From positions 1 through 40,895 of the forward strand of contig CADAPM010000016.1 of the NCBI GenBank assembly GCA_902789795.1: a stretch of 40,895 nucleotides of DNA, read 5' to 3'. This stretch comes from an uncultured Eubacteriales bacterium. Its GTDB lineage: Bacteria; Bacillota; Clostridia; Christensenellales; Aristaeellaceae. A model generated the notes under the pieces. It had not been told where the DNA came from and made no database searches. It saw only the letters and a program-made list of their open reading frames with translations. Positions 7,133 to 25,792 of the stretch are shown in pieces; positions within the stretch are counted from its first letter, which is position 1, and each line of letters starts with the position of its first letter. A program made the position numbers and the translations under genes.

Positions 7133-7161
7133 TTGCAATCGAAGCAAAACGGTATTATAAT
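7133..7161 (+). promoter_or_regulatory. Strong sigma-A-type promoter of the GH26/transport operon
   Basis: -35 TTGCAA (7133-7138), a 17-bp spacer and a perfect -10 TATAAT (7156-7161). No equally good promoter was seen before 23570, so this may drive a transcript of about 16 kb. Confidence 0.8.
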
Positions 7162-7171
7162 AAAGTTGTAT

Positions 7172-7196
7172 TTACTTAAATAAGTAATCTTATTTA
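7172..7196 (+). promoter_or_regulatory. Candidate operator: overlapping inverted repeats just after the promoter
   Basis: TTACTT/AAGTAA (7172-7177/7182-7187) overlaps TAAATAAG/CTTATTTA (7177-7184/7189-7196). Both lie within about 30 bp of the expected transcription start, where a repressor would block initiation or early elongation. Which protein binds is unknown; it does not look like the usual CG-centred LacI palindrome. Confidence 0.4.
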
Positions 7197-7270
7197 GCTT
7201 CGACTATGTTTTTCGGAACTGAATGTCCCCTGATAGGATGATACCGACCGTGATCTGCAGGAGGAAAACG

Positions 7271-8769: not shown

Positions 8770-11757
8770 ATGAAGAAATGGATTGGTCTGGCGTTGGCGC
8801 TCATGCTGCTGGGCATGGTCCCATCGGCGCTGGCGGTCACGGATCTGTCTGTGGAAGCGTACGAAAAGCTGGTCAGCACCTACTCGATCGATGAAAGCAT
8901 TCCGGCTTACGATGAGTATATGGAGCTGCATCCCGGCGCGCATCCGGAGGCCGAGATCGTGATCGAAGGCGCCCAGGCGGTGCGCTATGAGGAAGAGGGG
9001 CAGGCGGGCCCCACGGTGCTCACCGATTATGAAGGCATGGCGGGCGACGCCCTGCTGACCGGTGAAGAAGCGCTGGCGGAATGGGAATTCCAGGTCGCCG
9101 AGCCTGGCTGGTACGACCTGCACGTGACCTACTACCCCTACGCGGGTAAGAACTCGGAGATCCAGCGCGCCTTCTTCCTGGACGGGAAGCTGCCCTATGA
9201 CGAGCTGTCCCTGATTGCCTTCACCCGCGTGTGGCGCAACGATACCCATGAGGGCGTCGCCCGCGTCACGGACGATAAGGGCGTCCAGGTGATCACCTGG
9301 CTCAAGGACAACCAGGGCAACGACCTGAAGCCCTCGCCGGAGGAAGCCCCCGAATGGGTGGAGACCGCCGTGTACGACAGCAACGGCTACATCACCGACT
9401 GCCTGAGCGTCTACCTGGAGGCAGGCGGGCACACCCTGAGCATGCTTTCGCTGCGCGAGCCCATGCTGGTCAGGAGCCTGACCTTTAAAAATGAAGGCCG
9501 CCCCGCCGCCTATGCTGAGACCACATCGGCCACAGGCTCCGGGGCCAGCGGCGTTTCCGTGCGCATCGAGGCCGAGACCGCGCAGAAGACCTCCTCCCAG
9601 ATGCTGTACCCGGTACAGGACCAGGCGAGCGCGGCGGTGTACCCGTCCAGCGCCAGGTACCTGCTCAATAATACCATCGGCGGCAACGCCTGGAAGAACG
9701 CGGGCCAGTGGATCGAGTGGGAGTTCGAGGTGCCCGCGGAGGGCGATTACTGCCTGACCTTCTACGACAAGCAGAACTTCGTGCGAGGCATCGACATCTA
9801 CCGCAAGATCTATGTGGACGGGAAGGTGCCCTTCGCCGAGTTCGGCGCCCTGGCCTTCCCTTACGGCCAGAACTGGCGCATGGAGACCGCGTCGGATGAG
9901 AGCGGCAAGCCCTTCCGGGTGCACCTGACCGCCGGCCGCCACACCCTGCGCATGGAGGTGGTGCTGGGCAAAATGGCCGGCATCATCAGCCAGGTGCAGC
10001 AGTGCGTGCTGCAGCTGAATGCCATTTACCGCCAGGTGCTCTACATCACCGGCGTTTCCCCGGACCAGTACCGCGACTACCAGATCGAGCGCAGCCTCCC
10101 GGGCCTGAAACAGGAGCTCGTGGACGTGCAGGCCGACCTGCGCAAGGCCATCACCGTGCTGGAAGCCACGGCGGGACATTCGAGCGACAAGCTGACCGTG
10201 CTCAGGACCATGGACGACCAGCTGGACGAGCTGATCGAGGACCAGGAGCGCTTCACGGAGGTCCTTTCTTCCTATAAGACGAACGTGCGCGCCTGCGGCA
10301 ACTGGATCACCCAGGTGCTGGGGCAGCCCTTGCAGATCGACCGCATTTACGTGCACACCGCCGATGTGAAGCCCGCGGTGGAGAACGGCGGCTTCCTGGC
10401 CGGCCTGGCCCATGAGGCCGAGCGCCTGTTCAGCTCCTTCGTGATCGACTACAACCAGGTCGGCAATGTGGCCGAGACCGGGGGAGAGGCCAAGGTCATC
10501 ACCCTCTGGATCGGCACCGGCCGCGACCAGGCCAACGTCATCAAGTCCATGATCGACGAAAACTTCACGCCGGAGACCGGCATCAGCGTGAACGTGCAGC
10601 TGGTGGATATGAACACCCTGCTGCGCGCCACCCTGTCCGGCCAGGGCCCCGACGTGGCGATCCAGGTGGCCAACACCACCGGCATCGCCGGCGCGGTCAT
10701 GAACACCGGCAACGATACGCCCATGAACTACGGTCTGCGCCACGCCGTCCTGGACCTGACCAAGTTTGCGGACTTTTCCGAGGTCGCGTCCCGGTTCATG
10801 CCCAGCGCCCTGGTGCCCTTCTCCTTCAACGGCGCCACCTACGCTCTGCCCGACACCCAGACCTTCCCCATGATGTTCTACCGCAAGGACATCCTCGCGG
10901 AGATCGGCATGGAGGTGCCTGAGACCTGGGACGACGTGAAGGTGTCCATGAGCGTGCTTTCCAAGAACCAGATGGAGTTCGGCATGCTGCCGGGCGAGCA
11001 GACCTTCGCCATGCTTCTGTACCAGGCGGGCGGCGAGTATTACACCGAGAACGGCGACGCCTCCGCGCTGGACAGCGATGTGGCCATCAACGTGTTCCGC
11101 CGCTACTGCGAGTTTTACACCGACTACCGGCTGGACCGCGCCACCAGCGTGGAGGAGCGCTTCCGCACCGGCGAGTGCCCCATCATCATTTCTGACTATA
11201 CTACCTATAATAACCTCCAGGTCTCTGCGCCTGACATCAAGGGCCTGTGGGACTTCACCCACGTACCCGGCACCCTCGCGGCGGACGGCACGCTGGACAC
11301 CACCACCGGCTGCAGCGGCCTGGCGGACATCATCATGAGCGCCACCAAGGAGCCGGAAGCCTGCTGGGAGTTCCTCAAGTGGTGGACGAGAGCGGACACC
11401 CAGACCCTGTACGGCCGCGAGATGGAATCCCTGATGGGCTCCTCCGCCCGCGTGGCCACGGCCAATCAGGAGGCGCTGGCCAACCTGTCCTGGCCCATCC
11501 GCGACTACAAGGCCCTGGCGGAACAGTTCCAGCACGTCAAGGGCATCCCGCAGGTGCCCGGCGGCTACTACACCTGGCGTAACGTGAACAACGCCTTCTA
11601 CGCGGTGACCACGGACAACGCCAGCAAGGGCCGCAACGAGTCCGGCAACACGCCCCGCGAGGAGCTGATGGACAAGATCTACTACATCAATGCTGAGATC
11701 ACCTACAAGCGCACGGAATTCGGCCTGCCGACCGCGCAGGTCAGAGAGGAGGAGTAA
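8770..11757 (+). CDS. Extracellular solute-binding protein fused to two carbohydrate-binding-like domains
   Basis: A 995-residue exported protein, more than twice the usual length of a CUT1 binding protein. Residues 1-22 are a signal peptide (SALA-VT) with no lipobox cysteine. Two beta-sandwich domains resembling CBM or galactose-binding folds follow at about 62-240 and 264-420, each ending in a sequence like EAGGHTLSM or TAGRHTLRMEV. A helical, partly coiled-coil stretch lies at about 430-570. The C-terminal domain (about 575-990) is a family-1 sugar-binding protein (VITLWIGTGRDQANVIKSMI, GQGPDVAIQV, YALPDTQTFPMMFYRKDIL, ACWEFLKWWT). The likely role is to hold a polysaccharide and pass oligosaccharides to the permeases. 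The start has AGGAG 9 bp upstream, and the stop is 1 bp before the first permease gene. Confidence 0.85.
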   Translation: MKKWIGLALALMLLGMVPSALAVTDLSVEAYEKLVSTYSIDESIPAYDEYMELHPGAHPEAEIVIEGAQAVRYEEEGQAGPTVLTDYEGMAGDALLTGEEALAEWEFQVAEPGWYDLHVTYYPYAGKNSEIQRAFFLDGKLPYDELSLIAFTRVWRNDTHEGVARVTDDKGVQVITWLKDNQGNDLKPSPEEAPEWVETAVYDSNGYITDCLSVYLEAGGHTLSMLSLREPMLVRSLTFKNEGRPAAYAETTSATGSGASGVSVRIEAETAQKTSSQMLYPVQDQASAAVYPSSARYLLNNTIGGNAWKNAGQWIEWEFEVPAEGDYCLTFYDKQNFVRGIDIYRKIYVDGKVPFAEFGALAFPYGQNWRMETASDESGKPFRVHLTAGRHTLRMEVVLGKMAGIISQVQQCVLQLNAIYRQVLYITGVSPDQYRDYQIERSLPGLKQELVDVQADLRKAITVLEATAGHSSDKLTVLRTMDDQLDELIEDQERFTEVLSSYKTNVRACGNWITQVLGQPLQIDRIYVHTADVKPAVENGGFLAGLAHEAERLFSSFVIDYNQVGNVAETGGEAKVITLWIGTGRDQANVIKSMIDENFTPETGISVNVQLVDMNTLLRATLSGQGPDVAIQVANTTGIAGAVMNTGNDTPMNYGLRHAVLDLTKFADFSEVASRFMPSALVPFSFNGATYALPDTQTFPMMFYRKDILAEIGMEVPETWDDVKVSMSVLSKNQMEFGMLPGEQTFAMLLYQAGGEYYTENGDASALDSDVAINVFRRYCEFYTDYRLDRATSVEERFRTGECPIIISDYTTYNNLQVSAPDIKGLWDFTHVPGTLAADGTLDTTTGCSGLADIIMSATKEPEACWEFLKWWTRADTQTLYGREMESLMGSSARVATANQEALANLSWPIRDYKALAEQFQHVKGIPQVPGGYYTWRNVNNAFYAVTTDNASKGRNESGNTPREELMDKIYYINAEITYKRTEFGLPTAQVREEE

Positions 11758-11758
11758 G

Positions 11759-12691
11759 ATGAGCCAGGCACAAGCCAAGCGGTTACCCAAGACTCAGCGC
11801 TATGACCTTCGGCATGAGATCTGGAAGAGCAGAGCTTCCTACATGCTGATCGCGCCGTACTTCATCCTGTTCTTCCTGTTTACGGTGCTGCCGGTGCTGA
11901 TGTCCGTGTACCTGTCCTTCACCTACTTCAATATGCTGGAGCCGCCCCGCTTCGTGGGCTGGGCCAACTATGTGAAGCTCTTGCTGGAGGATGACATCTT
12001 CATCATTTCTCTGCGCAATACCCTTTTGTTCGCGGTGATCACGGGCCCGGTCAGCTACATGCTGTGCCTGCTCTTCGCCTGGATCATCAACGAATTCAAG
12101 CCCAAGGTGCGCGCGCTGTTGACCCTGGTCTTCTACGCACCGTCCATCTGCGGCAACGCCTACATGGTCTGGAACCTGATCCTGACCGGCGACCGCTACG
12201 GCTACCTGAACGGCTTCCTGCTGCGCCTGGACCTGATCAACGAGCCCATCCTGTGGATGCAGACGGAAAAGTACATCATGCCGGTGCTGATCGTGGTCCA
12301 GCTGTGGCTGAGCCTCGGTACGGGCTTCCTGTCCTTCATCGCCGGTCTGCAGACCGTGGATAAGGGCATGTATGAGGCTGCGGCCATCGACGGTGTCAAG
12401 AACCGCTGGCAGGAATTGTGGTTCGTGACCCTGCCGGCCATGAAGCCCCAGCTGCTGTTCGGCGCGGTCATGCAGATCACGCAGTCCTTCGCAGTGGCGG
12501 ATATCTCCATCTGGCTGGCGGGCAACCCGTCGGTCAACTACGCGGGCGCCACGGTGGTCACCCACCTGCTGGACTACGGCTCCACGCGTCTGGACATGGG
12601 CTACGCCTCCGCTATCGCCACCATCCTCTTCCTGCTGATGGTGGGCACCAACCAGCTGGTGCAGAGGATCCTGAGAAGGGTGGGTGAGTGA
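11759..12691 (+). CDS. CUT1 sugar ABC transporter permease, MalF-type (pair 1)
   Basis: A 310-residue membrane protein with six predicted transmembrane segments. The ATPase-docking EAA loop is EAAAIDGVKNRWQELWFVTLP (about 208-228), as in permeases of the carbohydrate-uptake-transporter-1 family. The ATG at 11759 follows GGAGGAGTAAG and comes 1 bp after the preceding stop; a longer frame from 11690 runs inside the binding-protein gene and is rejected. It pairs with the next gene to form the translocation channel for the 995-residue binding protein. No ATPase of the MsmX/MalK type is encoded in the window, so a shared ATPase elsewhere is inferred. Confidence 0.93.
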   Translation: MSQAQAKRLPKTQRYDLRHEIWKSRASYMLIAPYFILFFLFTVLPVLMSVYLSFTYFNMLEPPRFVGWANYVKLLLEDDIFIISLRNTLLFAVITGPVSYMLCLLFAWIINEFKPKVRALLTLVFYAPSICGNAYMVWNLILTGDRYGYLNGFLLRLDLINEPILWMQTEKYIMPVLIVVQLWLSLGTGFLSFIAGLQTVDKGMYEAAAIDGVKNRWQELWFVTLPAMKPQLLFGAVMQITQSFAVADISIWLAGNPSVNYAGATVVTHLLDYGSTRLDMGYASAIATILFLLMVGTNQLVQRILRRVGE

Positions 12692-12692
12692 G

Positions 12693-13622
12693 ATGCCGGC
12701 GACTGCAGTCAAACGTCCCGCTGAGACCGAGCCCGTCCGCAAGGTGAAACCCAAGAGGATCAAGAAGCTCAGGACCGGCAGCGGCAAGCTGAACCGATCC
12801 CTGGCGGGCAACACCCTGCTGTTCATCCTGATGGGCATCTGCGGCGTATTCATGGTCTTGCCGCTGGTGATGATCGTCAACAACGCGCTGAAGCCGCTGG
12901 ACGAGATCTACCAGTTCCCGCCCCGCATCTTTGTGCGCAACCCCACTCTGACCAACTTCAGCGACCTGTTCGTGCTGATGAACGAGAGCTGGGTGCCCTT
13001 CTCCCGGTACGTGTTCAACACCATCATCATCACCCTGGGCGGCATGATCGGCCACGTCATCATCGCTTCCATGGCCGCCTATCCGCTGGCGAAGCACAAG
13101 TTCCCAGGCCTCAAGCTGCTGTTCTCCATGGTCGTACTGTCCATGATGTTCTCCTGGACCGTCACCCAGATCCCGCAGTACCTGATCATCTCCTGGCTGG
13201 GCATCAACAACACCTACGCGGCGCTGATCCTGCCCGCCTGGTCCTACGGCATGGGCCTGTACCTGATGAAGCAGTTCATGGAGCAGCTGCCCGACTCGCT
13301 GATGGAGAGCGCGCGTCTGCAGGGCGCCAACGAGTGGCAGATCTTCTGGAAGATCGTCATGCCCAACGTGCGTCCCGCCTGGCTGACCCTGGCTATCTTC
13401 CAGTTCCAGGCCATGTGGGGCAACACCGGCGGCATGTTCCTGCGCTCTGAGGAACTGAAGCCCCTGCAGTACGCGCTGCAGCAGATCACCTCCGGCGGCG
13501 TGAGCCGCGCCGGCGCGGGCGCAGCGGTGACCTTCATCATCGCAGCCATCCCCATCACCTTCTTCCTCATCTGCCAGAGCTCCATTCTTGAGACCATGAC
13601 CACCTCGGGCATGAAAGACTAA
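12693..13622 (+). CDS. CUT1 sugar ABC transporter permease, MalG-type (pair 1)
   Basis: A 309-residue permease with six hydrophobic segments after a basic N-terminal tail (KVKPKRIKKLRTGSGK). The EAA loop reads MESARLQGANEWQIFWKIVM. It partners the MalF-type gene just upstream. The ATG at 12693 lies 1 bp after the previous stop; an overlapping GTG at 12684 is a possible alternative that adds three residues. The next gene begins 14 bp downstream, so it belongs to the same operon. Confidence 0.92.
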   Translation: MPATAVKRPAETEPVRKVKPKRIKKLRTGSGKLNRSLAGNTLLFILMGICGVFMVLPLVMIVNNALKPLDEIYQFPPRIFVRNPTLTNFSDLFVLMNESWVPFSRYVFNTIIITLGGMIGHVIIASMAAYPLAKHKFPGLKLLFSMVVLSMMFSWTVTQIPQYLIISWLGINNTYAALILPAWSYGMGLYLMKQFMEQLPDSLMESARLQGANEWQIFWKIVMPNVRPAWLTLAIFQFQAMWGNTGGMFLRSEELKPLQYALQQITSGGVSRAGAGAAVTFIIAAIPITFFLICQSSILETMTTSGMKD

Positions 13623-13636
13623 GGGAGGCGACAGAC

Positions 13637-15133
13637 GTGAGAATGAGAAAATGCTTCCCCCGGACGCTCTGCCTGGCCGCGGTGCTGTGTCTGATCGCCT
13701 CCTGCGCCTGGGCCAACGACAGCCTGCCCTATGACTGCTACAATTACGACTACTGGAACAACATCCTGTACACGCCCGCGCCCTACGTGCCGGATGGCAG
13801 TATTTCCGGTGCGACGCTGGAGTGGCAGGGCCAGCCCCTGGGCGCGTTCCGCATGCCCCAGGACCTGTGCGTGTCCCCGGAGGGGAACGTCTACATCGCC
13901 GATACGGGCAATAACCGCATCGTGGTACTGTCCGGCGATTTGAAGACGGTGCTCCAGGTGATCACCGACTTTGACGCCAACGGCAAAAAGGAGACCTTCA
14001 GCTCTCCCTACGGTGTGGCGGTATCCCAGAACGAACAGCTGTACGTGGCGGACTCCCAGAACCACCGCATCGTAGTGCTGGAGCTGGACGGCTCCTTCGT
14101 CAAGTACGTGCAGGACCCCAAGAGCGAGGTCCTGGACGAGAAATTCGTGTTCACGCCTCTCAAAGTCAGCGTGGACTATGCCGACCGCGTGTACTGTGTG
14201 GCCCAGAACATGTTCCAGGGCATCATGGTCTTCACCGCGGAGGGCGACTTCACCGGCTTCTTCGGCACCATCAGCGTCAAGATCAGCCTGTGGGAAAAGT
14301 TCTGGCGCAAGGTGTCCACCAAGGAAGAGCGCTCCAAGCAGCAGCTCTTCATCCCGACGGAGTTCACCGGTATCGACGTGGACGACGAGGGCTATGTGTA
14401 CACGTCCAACAAGGATACGGACGGCATCCAGGCGGTGCGCCGCCTGAACCCCAAGGGCGAGGACGTCATCCGCAAGGGCGCCAAGGAGAACCTGGGCGGC
14501 GACCGCGTGTTCGGCACCGTGGGCAACTATTCCGGCCCGAGCCAGATCGTGGACGTGGTCTACCGCGACCACGGCATCTACTCCCTGCTGGACGCCCGCA
14601 GGGGCAGGGTCTTCACCTATGATCACGAAGGCAACCTGCTGTACATCTTCGGCGGCATCGGCACCCAGGAGGGCACCTTCCGCGTGCCCGCGGCCATCGA
14701 GCACCTGGGCAGCCGGCTGATCGTGCTGGACAGCCAGCAGGCCAATGTCTGCATCTTCTCCGAGACCGAGTACGGGCGGCTCATCAACCAGGCGGTGAGC
14801 CTGCGCTACGACGGCGACGAGAGCCAGGCCGTGCCCCTCTGGCAGGAGGTGCTGCGCCTGGACGAAAACAACGAGCTGGCCAACAGCGGCATCGGCAAGG
14901 CCTACCTCTCGGCCGGGGACAACGAAAAGGCCCTGACCTACCTGCGCCGGGGCATGAACCGGGCGTACTACTCCGTGGCCTTCAAGCGCTGGCGCAATGA
15001 GATGCTTGCCGGCAACATCAGCTGGATCCTGACCCTGGTGGTAGTGCTGGTGATCCTGCTCATGGTCTGGAAGCGCGTGCTGAAGCCCAGACTTGCCGCG
15101 GCCAGAACAGCGAAAGGGGGGAGGACCGCGTGA
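13637..15133 (+). CDS. Exported NHL-repeat/TPR protein with C-terminal membrane anchor
   Basis: A 498-residue protein predicted to act on the outer face of the membrane. An N-terminal signal segment contains IASC (20-23), a possible lipobox, or may be cut at AWA-ND. Residues about 60-380 form a beta-propeller of NHL repeats (for example RMPQDLCVSPEGNVYIADTG and SSPYGVAVSQNEQLYVADSQ). Residues about 385-450 look like one or two TPR helices (VPLWQEVLRLDENNELANSG), and about 455-478 is a transmembrane helix followed by a basic cytoplasmic tail. The GTG at 13637 is chosen because GGAGG lies 8 bp upstream; ATG at 13643 is possible. Its end overlaps the Yip1-like gene by 4 bp. NHL propellers bind proteins or glycans; a role in assembling or sensing for this transporter is inference. 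Confidence 0.82.
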   Translation: MRMRKCFPRTLCLAAVLCLIASCAWANDSLPYDCYNYDYWNNILYTPAPYVPDGSISGATLEWQGQPLGAFRMPQDLCVSPEGNVYIADTGNNRIVVLSGDLKTVLQVITDFDANGKKETFSSPYGVAVSQNEQLYVADSQNHRIVVLELDGSFVKYVQDPKSEVLDEKFVFTPLKVSVDYADRVYCVAQNMFQGIMVFTAEGDFTGFFGTISVKISLWEKFWRKVSTKEERSKQQLFIPTEFTGIDVDDEGYVYTSNKDTDGIQAVRRLNPKGEDVIRKGAKENLGGDRVFGTVGNYSGPSQIVDVVYRDHGIYSLLDARRGRVFTYDHEGNLLYIFGGIGTQEGTFRVPAAIEHLGSRLIVLDSQQANVCIFSETEYGRLINQAVSLRYDGDESQAVPLWQEVLRLDENNELANSGIGKAYLSAGDNEKALTYLRRGMNRAYYSVAFKRWRNEMLAGNISWILTLVVVLVILLMVWKRVLKPRLAAARTAKGGRTA

Positions 15134-15762
15134 AAGACATGTTCAGCAAGGAGCGGTGGAAGTACCTCTTTTATACCGTGAGCCATCCCTCTGACGGCTT
15201 CTACTGGATCCGTCACCAGGAGCGCGGCAGCATCGGCATCGCCATCCTGCTGGTGGTGCTGTACGGCGTCGTCTTCTCCATGAACCGGATCTACGCCAGC
15301 TTCGTGGTCAACGACATCGAGCCCCGTACCGTCAATTCCGTGGCGGAGCTGGCCGGCGTGCTGATCCTCTATCTGGTGCTCTGCGTGGGCAACTGGTCCG
15401 TGACCTGTCTGATGGAGGGCGAGGGCCGCTTCAAGGATATCCTGATCGCCGTGGGCTACTCCATGCTGCCCATGGTGGTGGGCACGGTGCTGGCCACCAT
15501 CGTCTCCCAGGGTGTGGCGGAGAATGAAGAAGCCTTCTATTCCATCATCATGGGCCTGGGCACGGCCTATACCGTCATCATGATGCTCATCGGCATCATG
15601 CAGGTGCACAATTATACGCTGGGGAAGACGCTGACCACATTGTTCCTGACCGTGGTGGCGATGTTCATCATCATCTTCCTGGCGCTGCTGGTTTTCAACT
15701 TCATCACTCAGGTGTATAGCTTCTTCAGAAGCATCTACACCGAGCTGGTCTTCCGTGTGTGA
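15130..15762 (+). CDS. Yip1-domain integral membrane protein
   Basis: A 210-residue membrane protein with about five hydrophobic segments (GIAILLVVLYGVVFSM, LAGVLILYLVLCVGNW, LIAVGYSMLPMVVGTVLA, IMGLGTAYTVIMMLIGIM and TTLFLTVVAMFIIIFLALLV). The pattern matches the Yip1 family. An N-terminal segment, YTVSHPSDGFYWIRHQERGS, is typical of bacterial members found beside polysaccharide transport genes. It starts at a GTG overlapping the NHL gene stop (GTGA) and ends 16 bp before the DUF5696 gene, so the three are translationally linked. Bacterial Yip1 proteins have no firm biochemical function; scaffolding of the neighbouring membrane proteins is a guess. Confidence 0.8.
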   Translation: MKDMFSKERWKYLFYTVSHPSDGFYWIRHQERGSIGIAILLVVLYGVVFSMNRIYASFVVNDIEPRTVNSVAELAGVLILYLVLCVGNWSVTCLMEGEGRFKDILIAVGYSMLPMVVGTVLATIVSQGVAENEEAFYSIIMGLGTAYTVIMMLIGIMQVHNYTLGKTLTTLFLTVVAMFIIIFLALLVFNFITQVYSFFRSIYTELVFRV

Positions 15763-15778
15763 GAGGGGGTCTGGGATA

Positions 15779-18373
15779 ATGCAGCAAGCAGAAAATACCT
15801 GGAGCCTTCCTCCGAAACTGAAGCGCGCCCTCTGGATCCTGCTGGCGGTGGTGCTCGTGGCGGCCGCCGCGGTGATCTGGTGGTTCGTCACCAATTATCG
15901 TGGCTATAACGTATACCGTTCCATGGTCAAAGCTCCGGAGACCATGGCAGCGGGCACGGAATTCACCGCCCTCAAGGACGAACTGAAGGCCGTGCCGGGC
16001 TTCAAGCTGGCGGCGGAGAACGACCGCGCGGCCCTGTATGTGAAGACCGAAACGGCCGAGGTCGCCCTCTATGACAAGGAGAGCGGCGTCACCCTCTACT
16101 CCAACCCGCAGGACGCGGAGAAGGACCCCATCGCCAAGGCTACGAACCAGGAACGCCTGAAGAGCCAGTTCATCCTGAGCTACCTGGACTCCAACGCCAA
16201 GGAAGGCACGGCCTGGTCCAGCTACGCCAAGTCCGTCGCCAACGGTCAGGTGGAGTATGAGAACATCGAAAACGGCGTGCGGGTGATCTACAATCTCTCC
16301 AACGAGCGCATCCTGCTGGTGTCCGACCAGCTGACCGCCGAGTGGTACGAGATCCTGTCCAACGCCGGAAAGAAGCAGGCGGCCAAGTCTTACGTCCTGA
16401 ATGAAGAAAACGGCCTGTACGAGATCAAGACCAAGGGCGTCACCTCCCGCAACAAGCAGCAGATCGACCAGGACGCCCGGACGGCGGGCTTCACCCTGGA
16501 CGATTATGAAGAGATGCAGGCCCTGATCGTCAAAGAGGTCGAAGAAGAAGAGACGGAGAACCTTTCCTTCAGCATCACGCTCGAATGGAGACTGACGGCG
16601 GACGGCGCTCAGGTGACCCTGCCCTATGAAGGCCTGCAGGAATTCGGCGGCGGCCAGATCCGAGCCGTGCAGCTGCTGCCCTTCTTTGGCGCGGCGGGCA
16701 CGGGGGAGACCGGCGACCTGGTGCTGCCCGACGGCAGCGGCGCCCTGATGCACTTCAACAACGGCAAGAGCGCTTTCCCGCAGTACAACAAGAGTGTCTA
16801 CGACCTGGACCTGGTGGACAGCGATTACGCCGCGCCCCAGAATGCCCAGACGGTGCGTCTGCCCTTGTACGGCATCTGCCGTGAGAACAGCAGCCTGCTG
16901 GCGACCTGCGAACGGGGCACGACCCTGGCCAGCGTGGTGGCGGACGTGGCGGGCCGCAACAACAGCTACAACTTCGCCTACTTCACCTTCAACCTGCGCA
17001 GGACGGATACCCTGATGGTGGCCGGTGAAGAGGTGATCGTGGCCGAGCGCGACCTGTACCCGGTGGACTGCGTGGTGCGCTACACCATGCTGAACAGCGA
17101 CTATAAGGGCTACAGCGGCCTGGCCCGGGCTTACCGGGAACGGCTGATCTCCGAAGGCCGGCTCAAGGCCTCGGAAGCCAAGGAAGCGGATATCCCCTTC
17201 TATTATGACCTGATCGGCGGCGTCAAGGAGACCGCCCACTGGCTGGGCGTGCAGTACCTGCGGGTGCTGCCCATGACCACCTTCGCCGACGCGGAGAACA
17301 TCGTTACCGAGCTCAAGCATGAGAATATCTCCAACCAGCAGGTCAACCTGCAGGGCTGGATGAACGGCGGCTACTATCACGACGTCGTGAAGAAGGCCAG
17401 GGTGCTCAAACAGCTGGGCGGTGAAAAGGGGCTGAGCGATCTGAACGCTGCCCTGGCCCGCAGCGGCGGCGCGCTCTATCCCGATGCCGCGCTGCAGCTC
17501 GTCACCAGCATCACCAAGGGCTTCTTCCCCAGCGAGGAGGCTTCCCGCTACTATGCCGAGGGCTATGTGGTGGAGCTGGGCGTGGTCAATCCCGTGTCCC
17601 TGCGCCGGGCGGCTACCCTGGGCTATAACGAGCTGGGCTACATGCTGCTCTCGCCCAAGTTCCTGCCCCGGTACGCGGAAAACCTGAACCGGGAAGCCGA
17701 ACGGCTGAAGCTCAAGAATCTGAGCCTGCGCGACCTGGGCAGCGAGCTCCACGCGGACAAGCGCCGCACCAACGTGATCAACCGCGAGATGGACCTGGAC
17801 ATCGTGGACGAGGCCTTCAAGACCCTCGCGGGCGGGGGCCGCAGCCTGATGGTGACCGGCGGCAACGATTACGCTTTCGCTTATGCGGACCATGTCCTGA
17901 ACGCGCCGGTCATGTACACGCCCTATCCGATCCTGGATGAAGAGATCCCCCTGTGGGAAATGATCGTGCACGGCTCCATCGATTATGCCGGCAGCGCCAT
18001 GAACCTGACCCAGAGCGAAGACAAGGTCCGGGACCTGCTGCGCCTGGTGGAATACGGCGCCTCCGTCCATTACACCTTCACCTGGAGAGACGCGGCGGAG
18101 ATGAAGTACACCGGCCTGAACAGCAAGTTCGCCACGACCTTCGAAGCCTGGAAGGACGACGCGGTATCTGACTACCGTTTCGTGAACGGCGCCCTGCGCG
18201 CGGTGAACGGCGCGCAGATGGAGGAGCATGAACGGCTCACTGAGACCCTGAGCCGCGTCACCTATTCCAACGGTGTCACCATCTATGTGAACCAGGGGAA
18301 TGAGGAAGCGCAGGCGGATGGAAAATACATTCCGGCACTGAGTTACCTGGTCGTGGGAGGTGAAGCGCAATGA
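15779..18373 (+). CDS. DUF5696 membrane-anchored extracellular protein
   Basis: An 864-residue protein with a short cytoplasmic N-terminus, one transmembrane helix (about 18-38) and a large outer domain. Residues about 60-300 look beta-rich (ALYDKESGVTLYSNP, VEYENIENGVRVIYNL), as in a glycosidase-like beta-sandwich. The remainder, containing VLPDGSGALMHFNNGK and YKGYSGLARAYRERLISEGRL and ending in a possible alpha/beta barrel, fits the DUF5696 family as I know it. No catalytic pair can be named with confidence. The ATG at 15779 follows AGGGGG; its stop overlaps the next permease start (ATGA). Its place between two permease pairs points to glycan capture or handover at the cell surface, but an enzymatic role is equally open. 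Confidence 0.78.
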   Translation: MQQAENTWSLPPKLKRALWILLAVVLVAAAAVIWWFVTNYRGYNVYRSMVKAPETMAAGTEFTALKDELKAVPGFKLAAENDRAALYVKTETAEVALYDKESGVTLYSNPQDAEKDPIAKATNQERLKSQFILSYLDSNAKEGTAWSSYAKSVANGQVEYENIENGVRVIYNLSNERILLVSDQLTAEWYEILSNAGKKQAAKSYVLNEENGLYEIKTKGVTSRNKQQIDQDARTAGFTLDDYEEMQALIVKEVEEEETENLSFSITLEWRLTADGAQVTLPYEGLQEFGGGQIRAVQLLPFFGAAGTGETGDLVLPDGSGALMHFNNGKSAFPQYNKSVYDLDLVDSDYAAPQNAQTVRLPLYGICRENSSLLATCERGTTLASVVADVAGRNNSYNFAYFTFNLRRTDTLMVAGEEVIVAERDLYPVDCVVRYTMLNSDYKGYSGLARAYRERLISEGRLKASEAKEADIPFYYDLIGGVKETAHWLGVQYLRVLPMTTFADAENIVTELKHENISNQQVNLQGWMNGGYYHDVVKKARVLKQLGGEKGLSDLNAALARSGGALYPDAALQLVTSITKGFFPSEEASRYYAEGYVVELGVVNPVSLRRAATLGYNELGYMLLSPKFLPRYAENLNREAERLKLKNLSLRDLGSELHADKRRTNVINREMDLDIVDEAFKTLAGGGRSLMVTGGNDYAFAYADHVLNAPVMYTPYPILDEEIPLWEMIVHGSIDYAGSAMNLTQSEDKVRDLLRLVEYGASVHYTFTWRDAAEMKYTGLNSKFATTFEAWKDDAVSDYRFVNGALRAVNGAQMEEHERLTETLSRVTYSNGVTIYVNQGNEEAQADGKYIPALSYLVVGGEAQ

Positions 18374-19293
18374 CGGTGAAAGAGAGGAAAAAAGGCTTTC
18401 GCCTTTCCTATGAGCAGCGCAACTCCGTGCGCGGCTACGCGTTTATCCTGCCGTGGCTGATCGGCTTCCTGGTGTTCTATGTGGGCTGTCTGATCCAGTT
18501 GGTGCAGTTCAGCTTCCTGGACATCAAGATCGACGCGGCCACCGGCAGCCGGATCGACAACTTCGTGGGCCTTGGCAACTATATCGAGGCGTTCACGGCC
18601 CACGCCACCTTCAAGCAGGTGCTGACCTCCTCGGTCATGGATATGCTCATCGACCTGCCCATGATCATCTTCTTCAGCCTCTTCGTGTCCCTGATGCTGA
18701 ACCGGAAGTTCAAGGGCCGTGCCGTGGTGCGCGCCATCTTCTTCCTGCCGGTCATCCTGAGCGCGGACGCGGTGGGCGCGGCCATCACCAGGGCCATGGA
18801 ACTGATGAACGTGGGCGTATCCTCCACCTCCCAGGAGATGACGATGGCGGGCGGCGTATCCGTGTCCTACTACATCCAGCTGTTTGGAGACCTGGCGCTG
18901 CCGCCGGCCCTGCTCGAATACATCGTGGGCGCGGTCAACCGCATCGCGACCATCATCAAGGGCTCCGGTGTCCAGATCATCCTGTTCATCGCGGCGCTGC
19001 AGTCCATCCCCGGCTCTTTGTACGAGGTGGCGAAGATCGAAGGCGCCACGGGCTACGAGACGCTGTGGAAGGTGACCATCCCCATGCTGATGCCGCACAT
19101 CATCACCAACACGATCTACACCTTGGTGGACCGCTTTACCACGAGCCAGGTCGTGCAGCTGGCCAATGAAACGTACCAGCGCTACAATTACGGCCTGTCC
19201 TCCGTGTTCTCGCTGACCTCCACGATGATCACCATCCTGATCCTGGGCCTGATCGTGTACCTGCTCAACAAGCGGGCCTTCTACTACAACTGA
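18370..19293 (+). CDS. CUT1 sugar ABC transporter permease, MalF-type (pair 2)
   Basis: A 307-residue permease with six hydrophobic segments. The EAA loop is EVAKIEGATGYETLWKVTIP (about 218-237). A loop of about 45 residues (VGVSSTSQEMTMAGG onward, about 142-185) between the middle membrane segments is absent from the first MalF-type permease and is typical of a subgroup of Clostridia CUT1 permeases. The start overlaps the DUF5696 stop by 4 bp. It pairs with the gene at 19307. The low similarity to pair 1 argues against a recent duplication. Confidence 0.92.
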   Translation: MTVKERKKGFRLSYEQRNSVRGYAFILPWLIGFLVFYVGCLIQLVQFSFLDIKIDAATGSRIDNFVGLGNYIEAFTAHATFKQVLTSSVMDMLIDLPMIIFFSLFVSLMLNRKFKGRAVVRAIFFLPVILSADAVGAAITRAMELMNVGVSSTSQEMTMAGGVSVSYYIQLFGDLALPPALLEYIVGAVNRIATIIKGSGVQIILFIAALQSIPGSLYEVAKIEGATGYETLWKVTIPMLMPHIITNTIYTLVDRFTTSQVVQLANETYQRYNYGLSSVFSLTSTMITILILGLIVYLLNKRAFYYN

Positions 19294-19306
19294 GGAGGCG
19301 GAGAAA

Positions 19307-20278
19307 ATGGAAAAAACGAAAAAAAAGCTGGACGCCTGGCAGGAATTCCGTACCTCCCCGAAGTATTATGCAAAAAGAATACGCATGCGCAACAACCTCA
19401 AAAACTTCCTCCTGGGGCTGTTCAGATTCATCATCATCGTCGGCATCAGCTACGTCATCCTGGCGCCGGTCATCGGCATCATCACGCAGTCCTTCTTCTC
19501 CAGGCAGGACTCCATCAACCCCATGGTGTTCACCATCCCCATCAATCCCACTCTGGAACGCTATGAGATGTCCCTCAAGTATATGGACTATCTGCCCATC
19601 CTGGGCCGGACGCTCCTGTACGTAGGCGGGGTGACGGTGCTCCAGCTGCTGATCTGCTCCATGGTGGGCTACGGCTTCGCGCGCTACAACTTCCCGTTCA
19701 AAAAGCTGCTCTTCGGCTTCGTGGTGGTCATGATCGTGGTGCCGCTGAACACCATCCAGTTCCCGCTGTATGTCACCTTCCGCTACTTCGGCATCGGCAG
19801 CCATACGGTGAACCTGCTCAAAACGCCCTGGCCTACCATCATCCTGACCGCTTTCGGCTGCGGCCTGCGCTCGGGACTGTACATCTACATCTTCAACCAG
19901 TTCTTCCGCGGCCTGCCCAAGGAGATCGAGGAAGCCGCCCTGGTGGACGGCGCGAGCCCGTGGTACACCTATTTCGGCATCATGCTGCCCAACGCCTCTC
20001 CGGCCATCATCACGGTGGCGGTGTTCTCCATCGTGTGGCAGTACAATGATTCCTTCTTCGCCAATACCTTCAACATCTCTGATTCCATCCTGATCACCCG
20101 CAAGCTCGATACCCTGATCAACGTCATCGCCAACGGTGAGAAAATCTATACGATCCGCGAACAGCAGCTCTACTTTAACGCCGGCGTGGTGCTGGTGCTG
20201 CTGCCGGTCGTGATCATCTACCTGCTCCTGCAGCGCCGCTTCATCGAAGGCGTCGAACGGTCCGGTATCGTCGGCTGA
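19307..20278 (+). CDS. CUT1 sugar ABC transporter permease, MalG-type (pair 2)
   Basis: A 323-residue permease with a basic N-terminal tail (KTKKKLDAWQEFRTS), six membrane segments and the EAA loop EEAALVDGASPWYTYFGIML. GGAGG lies 10 bp before the ATG. It completes the second channel and most likely works with the binding protein at 22212, though binding proteins and channels could be exchanged between the pairs. A stem-loop region follows before the next gene. Confidence 0.92.
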   Translation: MEKTKKKLDAWQEFRTSPKYYAKRIRMRNNLKNFLLGLFRFIIIVGISYVILAPVIGIITQSFFSRQDSINPMVFTIPINPTLERYEMSLKYMDYLPILGRTLLYVGGVTVLQLLICSMVGYGFARYNFPFKKLLFGFVVVMIVVPLNTIQFPLYVTFRYFGIGSHTVNLLKTPWPTIILTAFGCGLRSGLYIYIFNQFFRGLPKEIEEAALVDGASPWYTYFGIMLPNASPAIITVAVFSIVWQYNDSFFANTFNISDSILITRKLDTLINVIANGEKIYTIREQQLYFNAGVVLVLLPVVIIYLLLQRRFIEGVERSGIVG

Positions 20279-20292
20279 TCCCTGTTTCCCAT

Positions 20293-20316
20293 CGTACCTG
20301 ATGCGGTACGCCGCAT
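20293..20316 (+). promoter_or_regulatory. Small mutually exclusive stem-loops between permease and module-protein genes
   Basis: CGTACC/GGTACG (20293-20298/20305-20310) overlaps ATGCGG/CCGCAT (20301-20306/20311-20316), so only one can form at a time. There is no T run, so it is not a standard terminator. It may be an RNA processing or stabilising element that allows higher expression of the downstream binding proteins. Confidence 0.3.
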
Positions 20317-20344
20317 ATAGGATAAAGAAAAGGAGGAGATTCTC

Positions 20345-22177
20345 TTGAAAAAAGCACTGTCCTTTTTCCTGATCGTGTGTCTCGCGATCACCATGTGCAT
20401 GTCGAGCTATGCCGACACCTTCAACTGGGCCCCCGCGCCGCAGGCTGAAGAAGCGGCAGCCGAGCCCGAAGCCGTAGCCGAAGCGGCCCCTGAGGCTGAA
20501 GCGGAAGCCGAACCCGAAGCCGAAGCGCCGGCAGCCACTGCTGAAGTGATCGACTTCGAAGACGGCAACTTCGCCTTCCTCGGCGTATCCACCCTCAAGG
20601 GCAACGCCGATCCGGCCGCCGTGCTCTCCGTTGTGGATTTCAACGGTTCCAAGGCGCTGAAGGTCGAAGCTCCCGCGAAGTTCCCCTACGTTGCCCTCAA
20701 CGTGGAAGGCCTGCTGGGCGACCGGCTCGCCGATGTGGCGGCCATCAGCGCTTCCTTTGGCGCGGACAGCGCGTCCGACGGCAACTTCTACGCGGTCTCC
20801 GGCAAGATCTATACCTACACCGGAGAAGCCAACGATGAGACGGTTGCGGGCTGGTCTGTCTACATGGCCAAGAAGAACCCCCGCACCATCGTCACCCAGC
20901 TGCCCGCCTTCGTGGCCGGTGCCGGCAACGCTCTGGTGATCTGCAAGGACGACCAGGCCGGCGGCGATCCCGAGGCCATCTACCTGGATGACATCAAGTT
21001 CCTGGATGCGGAAGGCAATGCCCTGCCTCTGGATTTGAGCGCTGAGTATGTCTCTGCGGACTCCGGCAAGGACCTGTCCAACCTGGTCGCGCTGGTCAAC
21101 CCCGTCGAATTCGCGGGCTTCACCGGCATCGCCGGCAGCGGCTGGGGCCAGAACGGTCTCGAAATGCCTGAAGACTTCCTGAACGCGCTGGTGCCCGGCT
21201 CCGTGGTGGAGATAGAGTACGAGAGCGCCGACGGCACTATCTGGGCGGTCATGCCTTGGGCTACCGCTGGCTGGAGCCGCATCGCGCAGGGCCAGGCTGC
21301 CATCAACAACTCCAAGAATATCGCCCAGATCCCCTACGAAAAGTTCGTGGAAGTCTGCGGCGAAGACAAGTCCACCTGGGGCGCCATGTTCCAGTGTGAA
21401 GCCCAGACCGACTGGACCGTGTACGCGGTGCGCGTCGGCCAGAGAGCCAACCAGATCGTGCTGAAGAACGCGGTCGAATTCCCCGGCTTCCAGAAGTCTG
21501 CCGGCGCCTGGGCGCAGGATGGTCTGGAAATGCCGCAGGAGATCGTGGACGCGCTGGTTCCCGGCTCCGTGGTTGAATTCACCTTTGAATCTGAAGACGG
21601 CAACCTGTGGCTGGTCATGCCGTGGGCGACCGCCGGCTGGAGCCGCGTTGCGCAGGGCAGCGCCACCATCATCGGTGACAAGTGCTATGTGACCTATGAG
21701 CAGATCGCCGAAGTCTGCGGCGAAGACAAGTCCACCTGGGGCGCCATGATGCAGGCTGAAGGCTCCTCCGCCTGGTCTGTGTACGGCGTGCGCGTCGGCC
21801 AGAAGGCTGAATTCTACGGCCTGACCAACCTGGTCGAGTTCCCCGGCTTCCAGAAGTCTGCCGGCGCTTGGGCGCAGGACGGCCTGGAAATGCCGCAGGA
21901 GATCGTGGACGCGCTGGTTCCCGGCAGCGTCGTGACCTTCACCTACGAGTCTGAAGACGGCAATCTCTGGCTGGTCATGCCCTGGGCGACCGCCGGCTGG
22001 AGCCGCGTGGGCAATGACGGCAAGGACGTGGCGGACGGCCACACCGCGCAGGTCACCTATGAGCAGATCGCTGAAGTATGCGGCGAAGACAAGACCACTT
22101 GGGGCGCCATGATGCAGGCTGAGGGCTCCTCTGCCTGGACGGTCTACAGCGTGGCTGTCGGCCAGGCGATCAAGTGA
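20345..22177 (+). CDS. Secreted protein of repeated Trp-rich carbohydrate-binding-like modules
   Basis: A 610-residue protein with no recognisable catalytic domain. Residues 1-23 are a signal peptide without a lipobox. Residues 34-66 are an Ala/Glu/Pro-rich linker. Residues about 67-225 form a beta-sandwich starting IDFEDGNF and ending IYLDDIKFLD, as in carbohydrate-binding modules. Three modules of about 112 residues follow (253-366, 376-486, 496-607), sharing GLEMPQEIVDALVPGSVV, LWLVMPWATAGWSRV and VCGEDKSTWGAM. Modules 2 and 3 are almost identical, also in DNA. The start is TTG at 20345, supported by GGAGG 8 bp upstream and by the signal peptide starting there. The likely role is binding polysaccharide at the surface for the adjacent transporter. 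The carbohydrate-binding family is not identified. Confidence 0.8.
   Translation: MKKALSFFLIVCLAITMCMSSYADTFNWAPAPQAEEAAAEPEAVAEAAPEAEAEAEPEAEAPAATAEVIDFEDGNFAFLGVSTLKGNADPAAVLSVVDFNGSKALKVEAPAKFPYVALNVEGLLGDRLADVAAISASFGADSASDGNFYAVSGKIYTYTGEANDETVAGWSVYMAKKNPRTIVTQLPAFVAGAGNALVICKDDQAGGDPEAIYLDDIKFLDAEGNALPLDLSAEYVSADSGKDLSNLVALVNPVEFAGFTGIAGSGWGQNGLEMPEDFLNALVPGSVVEIEYESADGTIWAVMPWATAGWSRIAQGQAAINNSKNIAQIPYEKFVEVCGEDKSTWGAMFQCEAQTDWTVYAVRVGQRANQIVLKNAVEFPGFQKSAGAWAQDGLEMPQEIVDALVPGSVVEFTFESEDGNLWLVMPWATAGWSRVAQGSATIIGDKCYVTYEQIAEVCGEDKSTWGAMMQAEGSSAWSVYGVRVGQKAEFYGLTNLVEFPGFQKSAGAWAQDGLEMPQEIVDALVPGSVVTFTYESEDGNLWLVMPWATAGWSRVGNDGKDVADGHTAQVTYEQIAEVCGEDKTTWGAMMQAEGSSAWTVYSVAVGQAIK
21101..22165 (+). 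repeat. Three tandem in-frame repeats of about 340 bp in the module-protein gene
   Basis: Repeat 1 is 21101-21442, repeat 2 is 21470-21802 and repeat 3 is 21830-22165. Repeats 2 and 3 share long identical DNA stretches, including the part coding for VEFPGFQKSAGAWAQDGLEM, which suggests recent duplication or gene conversion. Repeat 1 is older and more diverged. Confidence 0.85.
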
Positions 22178-22211
22178 TCCCTGTGGATGAATTCAAAGGA
22201 GGTTTGAATCA

Positions 22212-23570
22212 ATGAAACGTATCGTTGCTCTGATCCTGACCCTGGCGATGGTGCTGTCTCTGCCCGTATTCGCGAGCGCTGAGCGCCACCTGACGTACGG
22301 CATCTGGTGGGACGTGTACTACAATTCCGGTGATGCGGACCTGTCCGCGAACCCCGCTGTGGATCCTGAAGATCCCACCGATCAGGACGTTGCCATGTTC
22401 GAGAACGTCAAGCTGATCGAGGATGAGTATGACGTGACCTTCGAGTGGGCCAACCTGACCTATCAGGGCGTTCAGGACTCCATCAATTCTTCCATCCTGG
22501 CCGGTGATCCGGACTGCGATGTGTACACCGTTGAGCTGGGCTGGGGCGTGCCTGCCGCGATGAACGGCCTGGCCACCGACCTGCGCGATGTGCTGCCTGC
22601 TGACGATCCCCTGTTCAAGGGCGAAGACACCGTATTCAACATCGTCTCCCTGCCCGATGGCAGCGCCAAGATCCTGGCGGTCAAGAGCGGCCAGGCTCAG
22701 GCCGAAGCTACCTATCCGCTGGCCTTCAACCTGCAGATGATCCAGGAAGCCAACCTGGAAGACCCCCGCGACCTGGTGGAACGCGGCGAGTGGACCTGGG
22801 ACAAATTCCGTGAGTACTGCGAAGTCCTGACCAAGGACACCGACGGCGACGGTGTGACCGACGTGTACGGCTACGGCGCCTGGGCCAATGACGCCCTGAT
22901 GTACTGGATCATGTCCAACGGCACCTACATTGCTGCGACTGAAAAAGAGAACCTGTCTTCCCCCGAAGTGGGTGAGACCCTCAAGTTCCTGCAGGATCTG
23001 TACCTGGATGGCCTGGCCTACCCGATCCCCGCGGAAAACGGCTGGGACGTCTGCCGCTGGCTGTACCGCGACAAGAAGGTTGCCTTCACCACCACCGCTA
23101 CTTGGATCCTGTCCAACTATGACGACTATAACTATGACGGCAAGGCCGAGACCACGCTGGACTTCGACATGATCTTCGTCGATTATCCCATTGGCCCCTC
23201 CGGCAATGCCGAGACCAACGCCACCAAGATCGCCTACTCCAACTACTACATGATCCCCGCCGGCGTTAAGGATCCCAAGCTGGTCTACGACGCCTTCCGC
23301 GCCTACTGGAACTGGTATCATGATGATACCGAACTGCGCGACGAACTCACCGACTGGTGGTACACCGCTGTCTCTGACAAGCTGGAGATCCAGGATTGGA
23401 ACGTCAGCGTGGAGATGAAGATGGGCGAGCGCGAGACCGTCGACTTCTATAAGCTGGTCGAAAACGACGTTCCGATCCTTCAGTTCCTGAACGGCGAGTA
23501 CACCCCGGCTCAGCTGCAGGAATCCTACAAGCAGGTGGTCCAGGACGCGCTGGACAATCTCTATAAGTAA
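22212..23570 (+). CDS. CUT1 extracellular sugar-binding protein
   Basis: A 452-residue solute-binding protein of the usual family-1 size. It has a signal peptide 1-23 (VFASA-ER) and, unusually for a Gram-positive importer, no lipobox cysteine. Typical features are ILAGDPDCDVYTVELGW, GEWTWDKFREYCEVLTKDTDGDGVTD (a calcium-loop-like DxDxDG motif common in this family, 209-217) and a C-terminal helical region. The nearly perfect ribosome site AAAGGAGGT (22195-22203), 8 bp before the ATG, is the strongest in the window, in line with the excess of binding protein over permease usual in ABC importers. It is probably the main binding protein of permease pair 2. The ligand is inferred to be manno- or gluco-oligosaccharide from its neighbours. 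Confidence 0.92.
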   Translation: MKRIVALILTLAMVLSLPVFASAERHLTYGIWWDVYYNSGDADLSANPAVDPEDPTDQDVAMFENVKLIEDEYDVTFEWANLTYQGVQDSINSSILAGDPDCDVYTVELGWGVPAAMNGLATDLRDVLPADDPLFKGEDTVFNIVSLPDGSAKILAVKSGQAQAEATYPLAFNLQMIQEANLEDPRDLVERGEWTWDKFREYCEVLTKDTDGDGVTDVYGYGAWANDALMYWIMSNGTYIAATEKENLSSPEVGETLKFLQDLYLDGLAYPIPAENGWDVCRWLYRDKKVAFTTTATWILSNYDDYNYDGKAETTLDFDMIFVDYPIGPSGNAETNATKIAYSNYYMIPAGVKDPKLVYDAFRAYWNWYHDDTELRDELTDWWYTAVSDKLEIQDWNVSVEMKMGERETVDFYKLVENDVPILQFLNGEYTPAQLQESYKQVVQDALDNLYK

Positions 23571-23641: not shown

Positions 23642-23693
23642 GCGCCGCGCGCCCCGTACCGGCTTGCCGGCTGCGGCGCGCGGCGCTTTTTAT
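23642..23693 (+). terminator. Strong terminator-like hairpin just before the GH130_2 gene
   Basis: A perfect 12-bp stem, GCGCCGCGCGCC (23642-23653) with GGCGCGCGGCGC (23675-23686), has an inner CCGGC/GCCGG stem and the T run TTTTTAT. It ends 18 bp before the phosphorylase start codon, leaving no room for a promoter between. It should end the long operon, with partial read-through into GH130_2 and lacI (inference). Confidence 0.85.
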
Positions 23694-23711
23694 GAAAGGG
23701 AATTGAACGAC

Positions 23712-25769: not shown

Positions 25770-25792
25770 TACCGAATCGTCCTTTGATCAGG

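Follow-up and report, generated by a model that had tools for sequence, protein, structure and literature searches.

A candidate glycan-capturing module encoded between two CUT1 permease pairs in a beta-mannan-type locus

Introduction

To our knowledge, how Gram-positive bacteria of the gut and soil hold long glycans at their surface and pass them to ATP-binding cassette (ABC) importers is poorly described. In Bacteroidota, the surface module SusCD is found beside many different glycan enzymes and in many copies in some genomes. Here, we analyze a locus of beta-mannan type in a DNA stretch of 40,895 nucleotides (hereafter, the window), which is contig C16 (CADAPM010000016.1) of a 2.59-Mb assembly from an uncultured Eubacteriales bacterium (64 contigs, 88% complete; GC content of the window, 61%). 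According to Pfam, the locus encodes in order a glycoside hydrolase (GH) of family 5, a GH26 with a carbohydrate-binding module (CBM) of family 35, a first substrate-binding protein (SBP1), the permeases permA1 and permB1 (pair 1), an NHL-TPR protein, a Yip1 protein, a DUF5696 protein, the permeases permA2 and permB2 (pair 2), a protein with three CBM65 domains, a second binding protein (SBP2), a GH130 and a LacI regulator. Its likeness to SusCD is one of analogy only, as the window locus uses ABC permeases instead; no Pfam match to SusC or SusD was found among the 20 window proteins scanned, the rest of the genome lying outside this search.

Among described importers, MosABC of Caldicellulosiruptor bescii works with a shared ATPase, MsmK, and provides a precedent for such sharing (PMC8579813). 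In the excerpted text of that paper, MosABC resembles the window locus in combining an SBP with two PF00528 permeases, in having no ATPase gene beside the permeases and in lying in a catabolic locus; the window locus differs in having two permease pairs, separated by three accessory genes, and an SBP of 995 residues that is extended by further N-terminal domains. The MULL and MULS loci of Roseburia intestinalis likewise combine GH26, GH130 and LacI with an ABC importer for mannan products (PMC6385246). As described in the excerpts of that article, MULL has one binding protein and two permeases, and NHL-TPR, Yip1 and DUF5696 are not named; compared with MULL, the window locus doubles the number of channels and adds three genes. 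That a Yip1 protein can be encoded beside an ABC transporter and be required by it has a precedent in Bacillus, where YknW, a member of the Yip1 family, modulates how YknXYZ is assembled (PMC4887032, in part). YknWXYZ is an exporter of MacB type that includes a membrane fusion protein, whereas here the permeases are of importer type and Yip1 is fused or coupled to NHL-TPR; Pfam found neither a membrane fusion protein nor a MacB-type permease among the 20 window proteins. A term search of the main texts of PMC5320581, PMC6344614 and PMC4765114 returned no mention of NHL or Yip1, and the literature searched, which did not extend to subscription papers and preprints, contained no paper naming DUF5696 and no relevant paper on a combined NHL, Yip1 and carbohydrate permease system.

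We propose, at slightly better than even confidence, that NHL-TPR, Yip1 and DUF5696 form an accessory complex that sits on two CUT1 permease pairs and captures glycans, the whole being dedicated to the import of oligosaccharides or polysaccharides.

Results and discussion

NHL-TPR, Yip1 and DUF5696 commonly lie between two permease pairs

A first-pass annotation of the window had described two binding proteins, two complete permease pairs and NHL-TPR, Yip1 and DUF5696 proteins in one operon, and Pfam recovered all of these genes, each on the + strand. SBP1 (8770..11757; PF01547 together with structure and profile matches) encodes 995 residues with two beta-sandwich domains, the second CBM35/6-like by prediction, a helical segment and a C-terminal sugar-binding protein. 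It is followed by permA1 (11759..12691; PF00528, 3.1e-11) and permB1 (12684..13622, with a GTG start; PF00528, 1.2e-16), both of which retain the EAA loop. Then come NHL-TPR (13637..15133; NHL, 6.8e-17), in which a hydrophobic N terminus precedes an NHL beta-propeller, TPRs and a C-terminal hydrophobic segment with a basic tail; Yip1 (15130..15762; PF04893, 2.7e-15), a predicted membrane protein with 5 hydropathy peaks; and DUF5696 (15779..18373, starting with ATG; PF18952, 1.3e-185), in which a single N-terminal hydrophobic segment is followed by a GH129-like fold. The permeases permA2 (18370..19293; PF00528, 9.2e-8) and permB2 (19307..20278; PF00528, 6.2e-16) also retain the EAA loop, and SBP2 (22212..23570; PF01547, 2.9e-13) is a binding protein of ordinary size in which no lipobox was seen. 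The triple-CBM65 gene at 20345-22177 also falls within the range described by the first-pass annotation and was absent from its list.

That annotation had called for a survey of DUF5696, Yip1 and CUT1 permeases in this order, which we ran in one phylum. A PF18952 profile search of 398 genomes gave matches in 52, of which 43 passed the cut-off and 41, carrying 19 family labels, exceeded 300 bits. Gene order was compared at 114 loci, namely the window, 60 of the 63 strong (>300 bits) survey places outside it (G295, G187 and G373:C49 were left out) and 53 contigs matching the window's DUF5696. These 114 loci are not phylogenetically independent, the window's own DUF5696 served as query for the 53 nearer relatives, which are therefore biased to the mannan version, and gene orders were read with profiles grown from the window's proteins. 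In every one of the 105 loci with at least 2.5 kb of upstream sequence, NHL-TPR lies ahead of DUF5696 at a distance of no more than 3 kb, and our rule placed Yip1 upstream of DUF5696 in 103 of them. In the two exceptions (L065 and L074), a Yip1 open reading frame (ORF) is present and overlaps that of DUF5696, so that the NHL-TPR-Yip1-DUF5696 core occurs in all 105 loci. Downstream of DUF5696, two permeases were found in 104 of the 109 loci with at least 2.2 kb of sequence and one permease in the other 5. Where at least 8 kb was available upstream (85 loci), a permease pair was present there in 72 and SBP1 lay within the stretch in 79. The module thus adjoins CUT1-type permeases at nearly every locus, and the gene order is conserved far beyond chance.

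The full order SBP1-pair 1-NHL-TPR-DUF5696-pair 2 was observed in 66 of the 81 loci that satisfied both the 8-kb upstream and the 2.2-kb downstream limits. Less favorable to our proposal, pair 1 and SBP1 lie downstream of pair 2 in 7 of the 81 loci, and a second pair is not in the stretch in 5; L077, which has permease pairs on both sides, is not among the 7. Both arrangements would fit an alternative in which the operon holds two ordinary CUT1 importers, each for its own products, with NHL-TPR, Yip1 and DUF5696 serving pair 2 only or neither. We regard this alternative as rather unlikely, the position of the module between the pairs in the 66 loci being a first argument against it.

The same order is found in an independent RefSeq-type annotation, that of the Butyrivibrio fibrisolvens plasmid pNP243 (L218, 1-19940), and the same module is present in this order on a Paenibacillus cellulosilyticus plasmid (L219, 3552-25175), where a 719-residue "YIP1 family protein" has the length of the NHL-TPR-Yip1 fusions described below. 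With such named carriers and concrete genes, the question becomes directly testable. Besides a complete system, pNP243 (243 kb) carries genes for a GH43 and for a paired histidine kinase and response regulator. The Paenibacillus locus is headed by a gene for a UgpC ATPase and also encodes several LLM-class flavin oxidoreductases, which hint at a nonstandard substrate.

NHL-TPR and Yip1 are fused in a subset of loci

Of the 105 loci with sufficient upstream sequence, 37 encode NHL-TPR and Yip1 as one continuous ORF. Over all 114 loci, 41 fusions were counted; the 60 survey loci contribute 39 of these and the 53 nearer relatives the other 2. The two fused nearer relatives (L104 and L120) encode DUF5696 proteins 65% and 68% identical to that of the window, so the 4-bp overlap of NHL-TPR and Yip1 in the window is the counterpart of a true fusion in close kin. 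The C-terminal hydrophobic segment and basic tail of NHL-TPR, together with the basic start of Yip1, would be consistent with the two proteins meeting on the cytoplasmic face of the membrane. The fusions argue that NHL-TPR and Yip1 belong to a shared unit.

Pairwise distances of the eight components, computed over the 48 loci that have all eight, correlated at r values of 0.89 to 0.97, relatedness contributing to every such correlation. In the 27 of these loci that also contain GH26 and CBM65, the components correlated with each other at 0.79 to 0.97, versus 0.71 to 0.81 with GH26 and 0.63 to 0.82 with CBM65. The values for DUF5696 speak for two ordinary importers, since they were 0.89 to 0.90 with permA1 and permB1 versus 0.96 to 0.97 with permA2, permB2 and SBP2. 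NHL-TPR correlated at 0.97 with SBP1 and equally at 0.97 with SBP2, a point against two ordinary importers. As NHL-TPR tracks SBP2 as well as SBP1, this comparison slightly lowers our confidence in a single complex and slightly raises that in two ordinary importers.

Three unrelated families mark nearly identical sets of genomes

The distribution of the NHL-TPR and SBP1 families was compared with that of DUF5696 in the 398 genomes, with at most 3 candidates per genome scored for DUF5696 and NHL-TPR and at most 2 for SBP1. Matches of the NHL-TPR profile (A2) above 190 bits occurred in the 41 DUF5696 genomes and in one more, G223, making 42; the other A2 matches listed (152 genomes in all at E<=0.001) were a fragment in G373 or scored below 75 bits. 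In G223, a 284-residue NHL-TPR frame (L184, 7685-8536) starts at a contig end, with no DUF5696 on the 8.5-kb contig, and is possibly a remnant. With the SBP1 profile (A3), 43 genomes scored above 750 bits. These comprise the same 41 as well as G098 and G140; in the latter two, SBP1 and the start of permA1 are found on contigs of 3.8 and 4.3 kb. G097 was counted for SBP1 although its match is truncated by a contig end (786 bits, positions 427-975), and G075, which lacks DUF5696, has a partial SBP1-like match below the cut-off (653.5 bits, profile positions 537-974 only). Fisher P values for co-occurrence with DUF5696 were 3e-55 and 6e-54, uncorrected for relatedness. Hence, three unrelated families mark nearly identical genome sets, and the presence of SBP1 in all 41 DUF5696 genomes argues against two ordinary importers.

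Copy numbers give a more nuanced picture. In eight genomes scored fully, with a cut-off of 600 bits for both profiles, DUF5696 and SBP1 were equal in G037 (6:6), G095 (3:3), G306 (3:3) and G062 (2:2), which counts against two ordinary importers, whereas DUF5696 outnumbered SBP1 in G058 (9:4), G150 (7:4), G124 (7:4) and G077 (13:9), in keeping with them. This surplus weakens the idea of a fixed 1:1 two-channel machine and suggests that SBP1 and pair 1 are shared among cores or that the core is used independently. When partial copies were added by counting DUF5696 from 400 bits, the numbers were 10 (G058), 8 (G150), 9 (G124), 15 (G077), 10 (G037), 3 (G095), 3 (G306) and 2 (G062). Five of these genomes (G058, G150, G124, G037 and G077), of 2.2 to 3.0 Mb, contain 6 to 13 full DUF5696 matches each, or 8 to 15 including partial ones, which recalls the expansion of SusCD.

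DUF5696 is predicted to have a GH129 fold

Searched against solved structures, a profile of 50 DUF5696 sequences matched ZGAL_3152 (5opq, 8rzk and 8rzg; E, ~2e-12) and the GH129 enzyme NagBb (5wzn and 5wzq; E, ~1e-9), DUF5696 being 12 to 14% identical to its GH129-type relatives. With the AlphaFold (AF2) model of DUF5696 (mean predicted local distance difference test score [pLDDT], 90.6; predicted template modeling score, 0.88), Foldseek retrieved 5opq (E, 2.0e-32; template modeling score by target, 0.69) and 5wzn (E, 3.3e-27), followed by weaker matches to GH101 and GH36. The first-pass annotation had treated DUF5696 as a domain without described function; profile and model now assign it a predicted glycosidase fold of the GH129 (GH101/GH129) type. 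DUF5696 shares with NagBb and ZGAL_3152 an N-terminal beta-sandwich, a barrel and a C-terminal beta domain, and differs from them by an N-terminal hydrophobic anchor and by the absence of the aligned nucleophile in most sequences. In Pfam at E<=0.001, the window DUF5696 matched PF18952 alone and not PF11308 (GH129). PF11308, sought as a bridging family, was found in 1 of 12 chosen genomes and in 0 of 249 genomes of a further scan; as control genomes gave none there either, this zero does not speak for absence.

In the alignment to NagBb, the NagBb motif GWAQPGYD lies opposite GWMNGGYY of the window DUF5696. The NagBb nucleophile is Asp330; in the column aligned to it, 22 of the 50 DUF5696 sequences have Tyr and 3 have Asp, which supports the view that most members lack the canonical nucleophile. 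A profile of the C-terminal barrel (A4) matched no PDB chain, and no catalytic residue could be mapped beyond the nucleophile.

These results bear on the possibility that DUF5696 is an active, unconventional glycosidase that trims glycans at the transporter mouth, a role that would fit the proposed machine and contradict only a pseudo-enzyme step. The nearest solved relatives (5opq, 8rzk and 5wzn) are enzymes, and the acids D660 (47 of 50 sequences) and E758 (45 of 50) are conserved. Moreover, ZGAL_3152 is an active alpha-1,3-(3,6-anhydro)-D-galactosidase that retains one of the two NagBb catalytic residues, the second catalytic Asp being Asp435 in NagBb and Asp486 in ZGAL_3152 (PMC5698469, in part), so nucleophile loss in DUF5696 does not imply loss of all activity. 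However, the rarity of Asp in the nucleophile column, the Lys found opposite the catalytic Asp202 of ZGAL_3152 (by hand count on the alignment) and the location of DUF5696 beside enzymes for many unrelated glycans, a poor fit to one specific exo-enzyme, make an active glycosidase rather unlikely in our opinion.

A sensor or a permease assembly chaperone, acting without substrate contact, would be another role for the three accessory proteins. The profile searches matched both NHL propellers and TPRs, and the NHL domain of NHL-TPR matches that of PknD (1rwi; E, 1.8e-31); for assembly, YknW is a precedent (PMC4887032, in part). A carbohydrate-enzyme fold of 600 residues is nevertheless unexpected in a pure chaperone, Pfam found no cytoplasmic signaling domain in NHL-TPR, Yip1 or DUF5696, and separate regulators exist, LacI in the window and the two-component system in Butyrivibrio. 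We judge such a role to be improbable.

Both permease pairs are of predicted importer type

The glycine of the EAA loop is kept in 66 of 67 permA1 sequences (the other has X), 67 of 67 permB1, 104 of 104 permA2 and 104 of 104 permB2. As the E-A-x-x-x-G core is kept in all four permeases, neither pair resembles a dead subunit. Paired PF00528 permeases with an EAA loop class both pairs as predicted CUT1 ABC importers, and SBP1 and SBP2 both match PF01547, the family 1 type of SBP. PF00005 (ATPase) had 79 matches in the genome, and the sole one in the window (5148-5567, minus strand) adjoins an ABC-2 membrane gene. We also considered whether the system might serve export or surface-polymer assembly, as its Yip1 precedent YknWXYZ is an exporter (PMC4887032, in part); as the locus encodes two SBPs, catabolic enzymes and GH130, and its permeases have EAA loops of importer type, this is highly improbable and we reject it.

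The SBP1 model (mean pLDDT, 86.6) shows two N-terminal beta-rich domains, a helical segment at residues ~402-517 and a C-terminal SBP (domain residues ~591-881). Matches of the SBP part are to oligosaccharide-binding proteins, including CpMnBP1 bound to mannobiose or mannotriose. For the second N-terminal domain, the match is to the CBM35 domain of cycloisomaltooligosaccharide glucanotransferases (E, 2.5e-7), and SBP1 is predicted on this basis to carry a CBM35/6-like domain. No lipobox was seen in the window's SBP1; such a lack was considered as a special trait of SBP1 and dropped, since a regular expression found none in 83 of 96 SBP1 ORFs and 76 of 100 SBP2 ORFs. Among the other SBPs of the window's genome (L191-L214), 3 of 27 had the motif, though many of these loci were read on the wrong strand. 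In this lineage, SBPs may be secreted or otherwise anchored, several having signal-like N termini without a lipobox.

A proposed surface machine

In the mechanism that we propose, secreted GH26 and GH5 would cut mannan, and SBP1, through its CBM-like domain and SBP, would retain the chains at the cell surface together with the CBM65 protein. DUF5696, anchored in the membrane and of enzyme descent, would bind glycan ends at the channel mouth rather than perform classical hydrolysis. NHL-TPR with Yip1 would act as a membrane scaffold docking SBP1, DUF5696 and the permeases for hand-over of the glycan. Import would proceed through both pairs, powered by a CUT1 ATPase encoded elsewhere, and GH130 would phosphorolyse the imported products inside the cell.

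Several features of the components weigh against this scheme. The strict EAA pattern is present in 43 of 67 permA1, 66 of 67 permB1, 80 of 104 permA2 and 59 of 104 permB2 sequences, and the final Pro of the loop is absent from permB2 in 38 of 104. When domain 2 of SBP1 was compared with Pfam at E<=1 in 40 members, 12 of them matched Golvesin_C, 5 matched CBM35 (lowest E, 3.1e-5) and 2 matched CBM6 (lowest E, 8.8e-6), and domain 2 of the window's own SBP1 had no match. DUF5696 may also be an active enzyme, as ZGAL_3152 works without the canonical nucleophile (PMC5698469, in part). The first-pass annotation had envisaged a single surface complex. Gene order, co-occurrence in 41 of the 398 genomes and the fusions agree with it, whereas the position of SBP1 and pair 1, sometimes downstream or elsewhere, and the DUF5696 surplus in four of eight genomes do not. 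Overall, genomic data support a single machine, with copy numbers favoring some modularity.

Thirty of 69 neighbor genes picked from the relatives were scanned. Fourteen, in favor of the scheme, are glycoside hydrolases or lyases (two GH2, GH3, GH5, GH28, GH35, GH42, three GH43, GH106, a GxGYxYP putative hydrolase, a pectate lyase and an alginate lyase). The other 16, a further point on the negative side, are neither, and include a ricin-type lectin and a GDSL-type esterase. Among the 53 nearer relatives, CBM65 is present in 50 and GH26 in 43, so the mannan version dominates, as the query predicts. The locus departs from known forms of CUT1 import, and a machine of a new class may underlie it. 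We tentatively suggest, at less than even confidence, that it represents an unnamed class of surface glycan-import machine, a functional counterpart of SusCD for cells whose imports pass through ABC permeases. Such a machine would be a modular complex of conserved gene order, in which an NHL-TPR-Yip1 scaffold bears a receptor of GH129 fold and is joined by two ABC channels and an SBP equipped with a CBM. This class, present in 6 to 13 full copies in some small genomes, may have been retooled for mannan, pectin, xylan or arabinan, alginate-like and other glycans, as judged from neighboring GH and lyase genes alone. If this is true, reannotation would be due for loci that currently pass for two importers separated by genes of no assigned function.

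Flanking genes and candidate transcription signals

Upstream of SBP1 on the + strand are the genes for GH5 (5861..7075; cellulase PF00150, 9.7e-68), with a hydrophobic N terminus, and for GH26 with CBM35 (7223..8731; GH26, 2.3e-76; CBM35, 8.8e-13). Downstream of pair 2, on the same strand, the presumably secreted CBM65 protein (20345..22177; PF18259, 3.4e-65, in three stretches) also has a hydrophobic N terminus. SBP2 is followed by a member of the GH130 phosphorylase family (23664..24734; PF04041, 5.4e-70), for which a later ATG may be the true start, and by the LacI-family regulator (24759..25769; PF13377, 5.1e-30; PF00356, 3.3e-9), both on the + strand. Elsewhere in the window, a match to PF01790 (prolipoprotein diacylglyceryl transferase-like; 77.5 bits) at 29584-30312 lies near a GT2-GtrA protein (27438-28553); the best Lgt match of the genome is on contig C21 and not this copy.

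From SBP1 to permB2, the intergenic distances are +1, -8, +14, -4, +16, -4 and +13 bp, making the region from 11759 to 20278 nearly gapless. Gaps of 1 to 16 bp or 4-bp overlaps had been described in the first-pass annotation, which holds in general except that permA1 and permB1, the latter with its GTG start, overlap by 8 bp. On the + strand, a single terminator-like match falls between 8731 and 23570, inside permA2 (18718), and the scan's longest stem of this kind (25790-25818) lies 3' of lacI. The best + strand promoter-like site, a weak TTGCAA-17-TATAAT with 10 of 12 consensus positions (7133..7161), is located upstream of GH26, and four weaker sites (9 of 12) lie within the operon, at 13716, 16266, 16815 and 19160. 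As such matches were about as common as in shuffled sequences (promoters, 6 versus 4.8; terminators, 9 versus 12.2), a single transcription unit for the locus is plausible and unproven. Directly after the promoter-like TATAAT and 5' of GH26, we noticed by eye an inverted repeat, TTACTTA-AA-TAAGTAA (7172-7187), which was absent from a scripted palindrome scan and is a candidate LacI operator.

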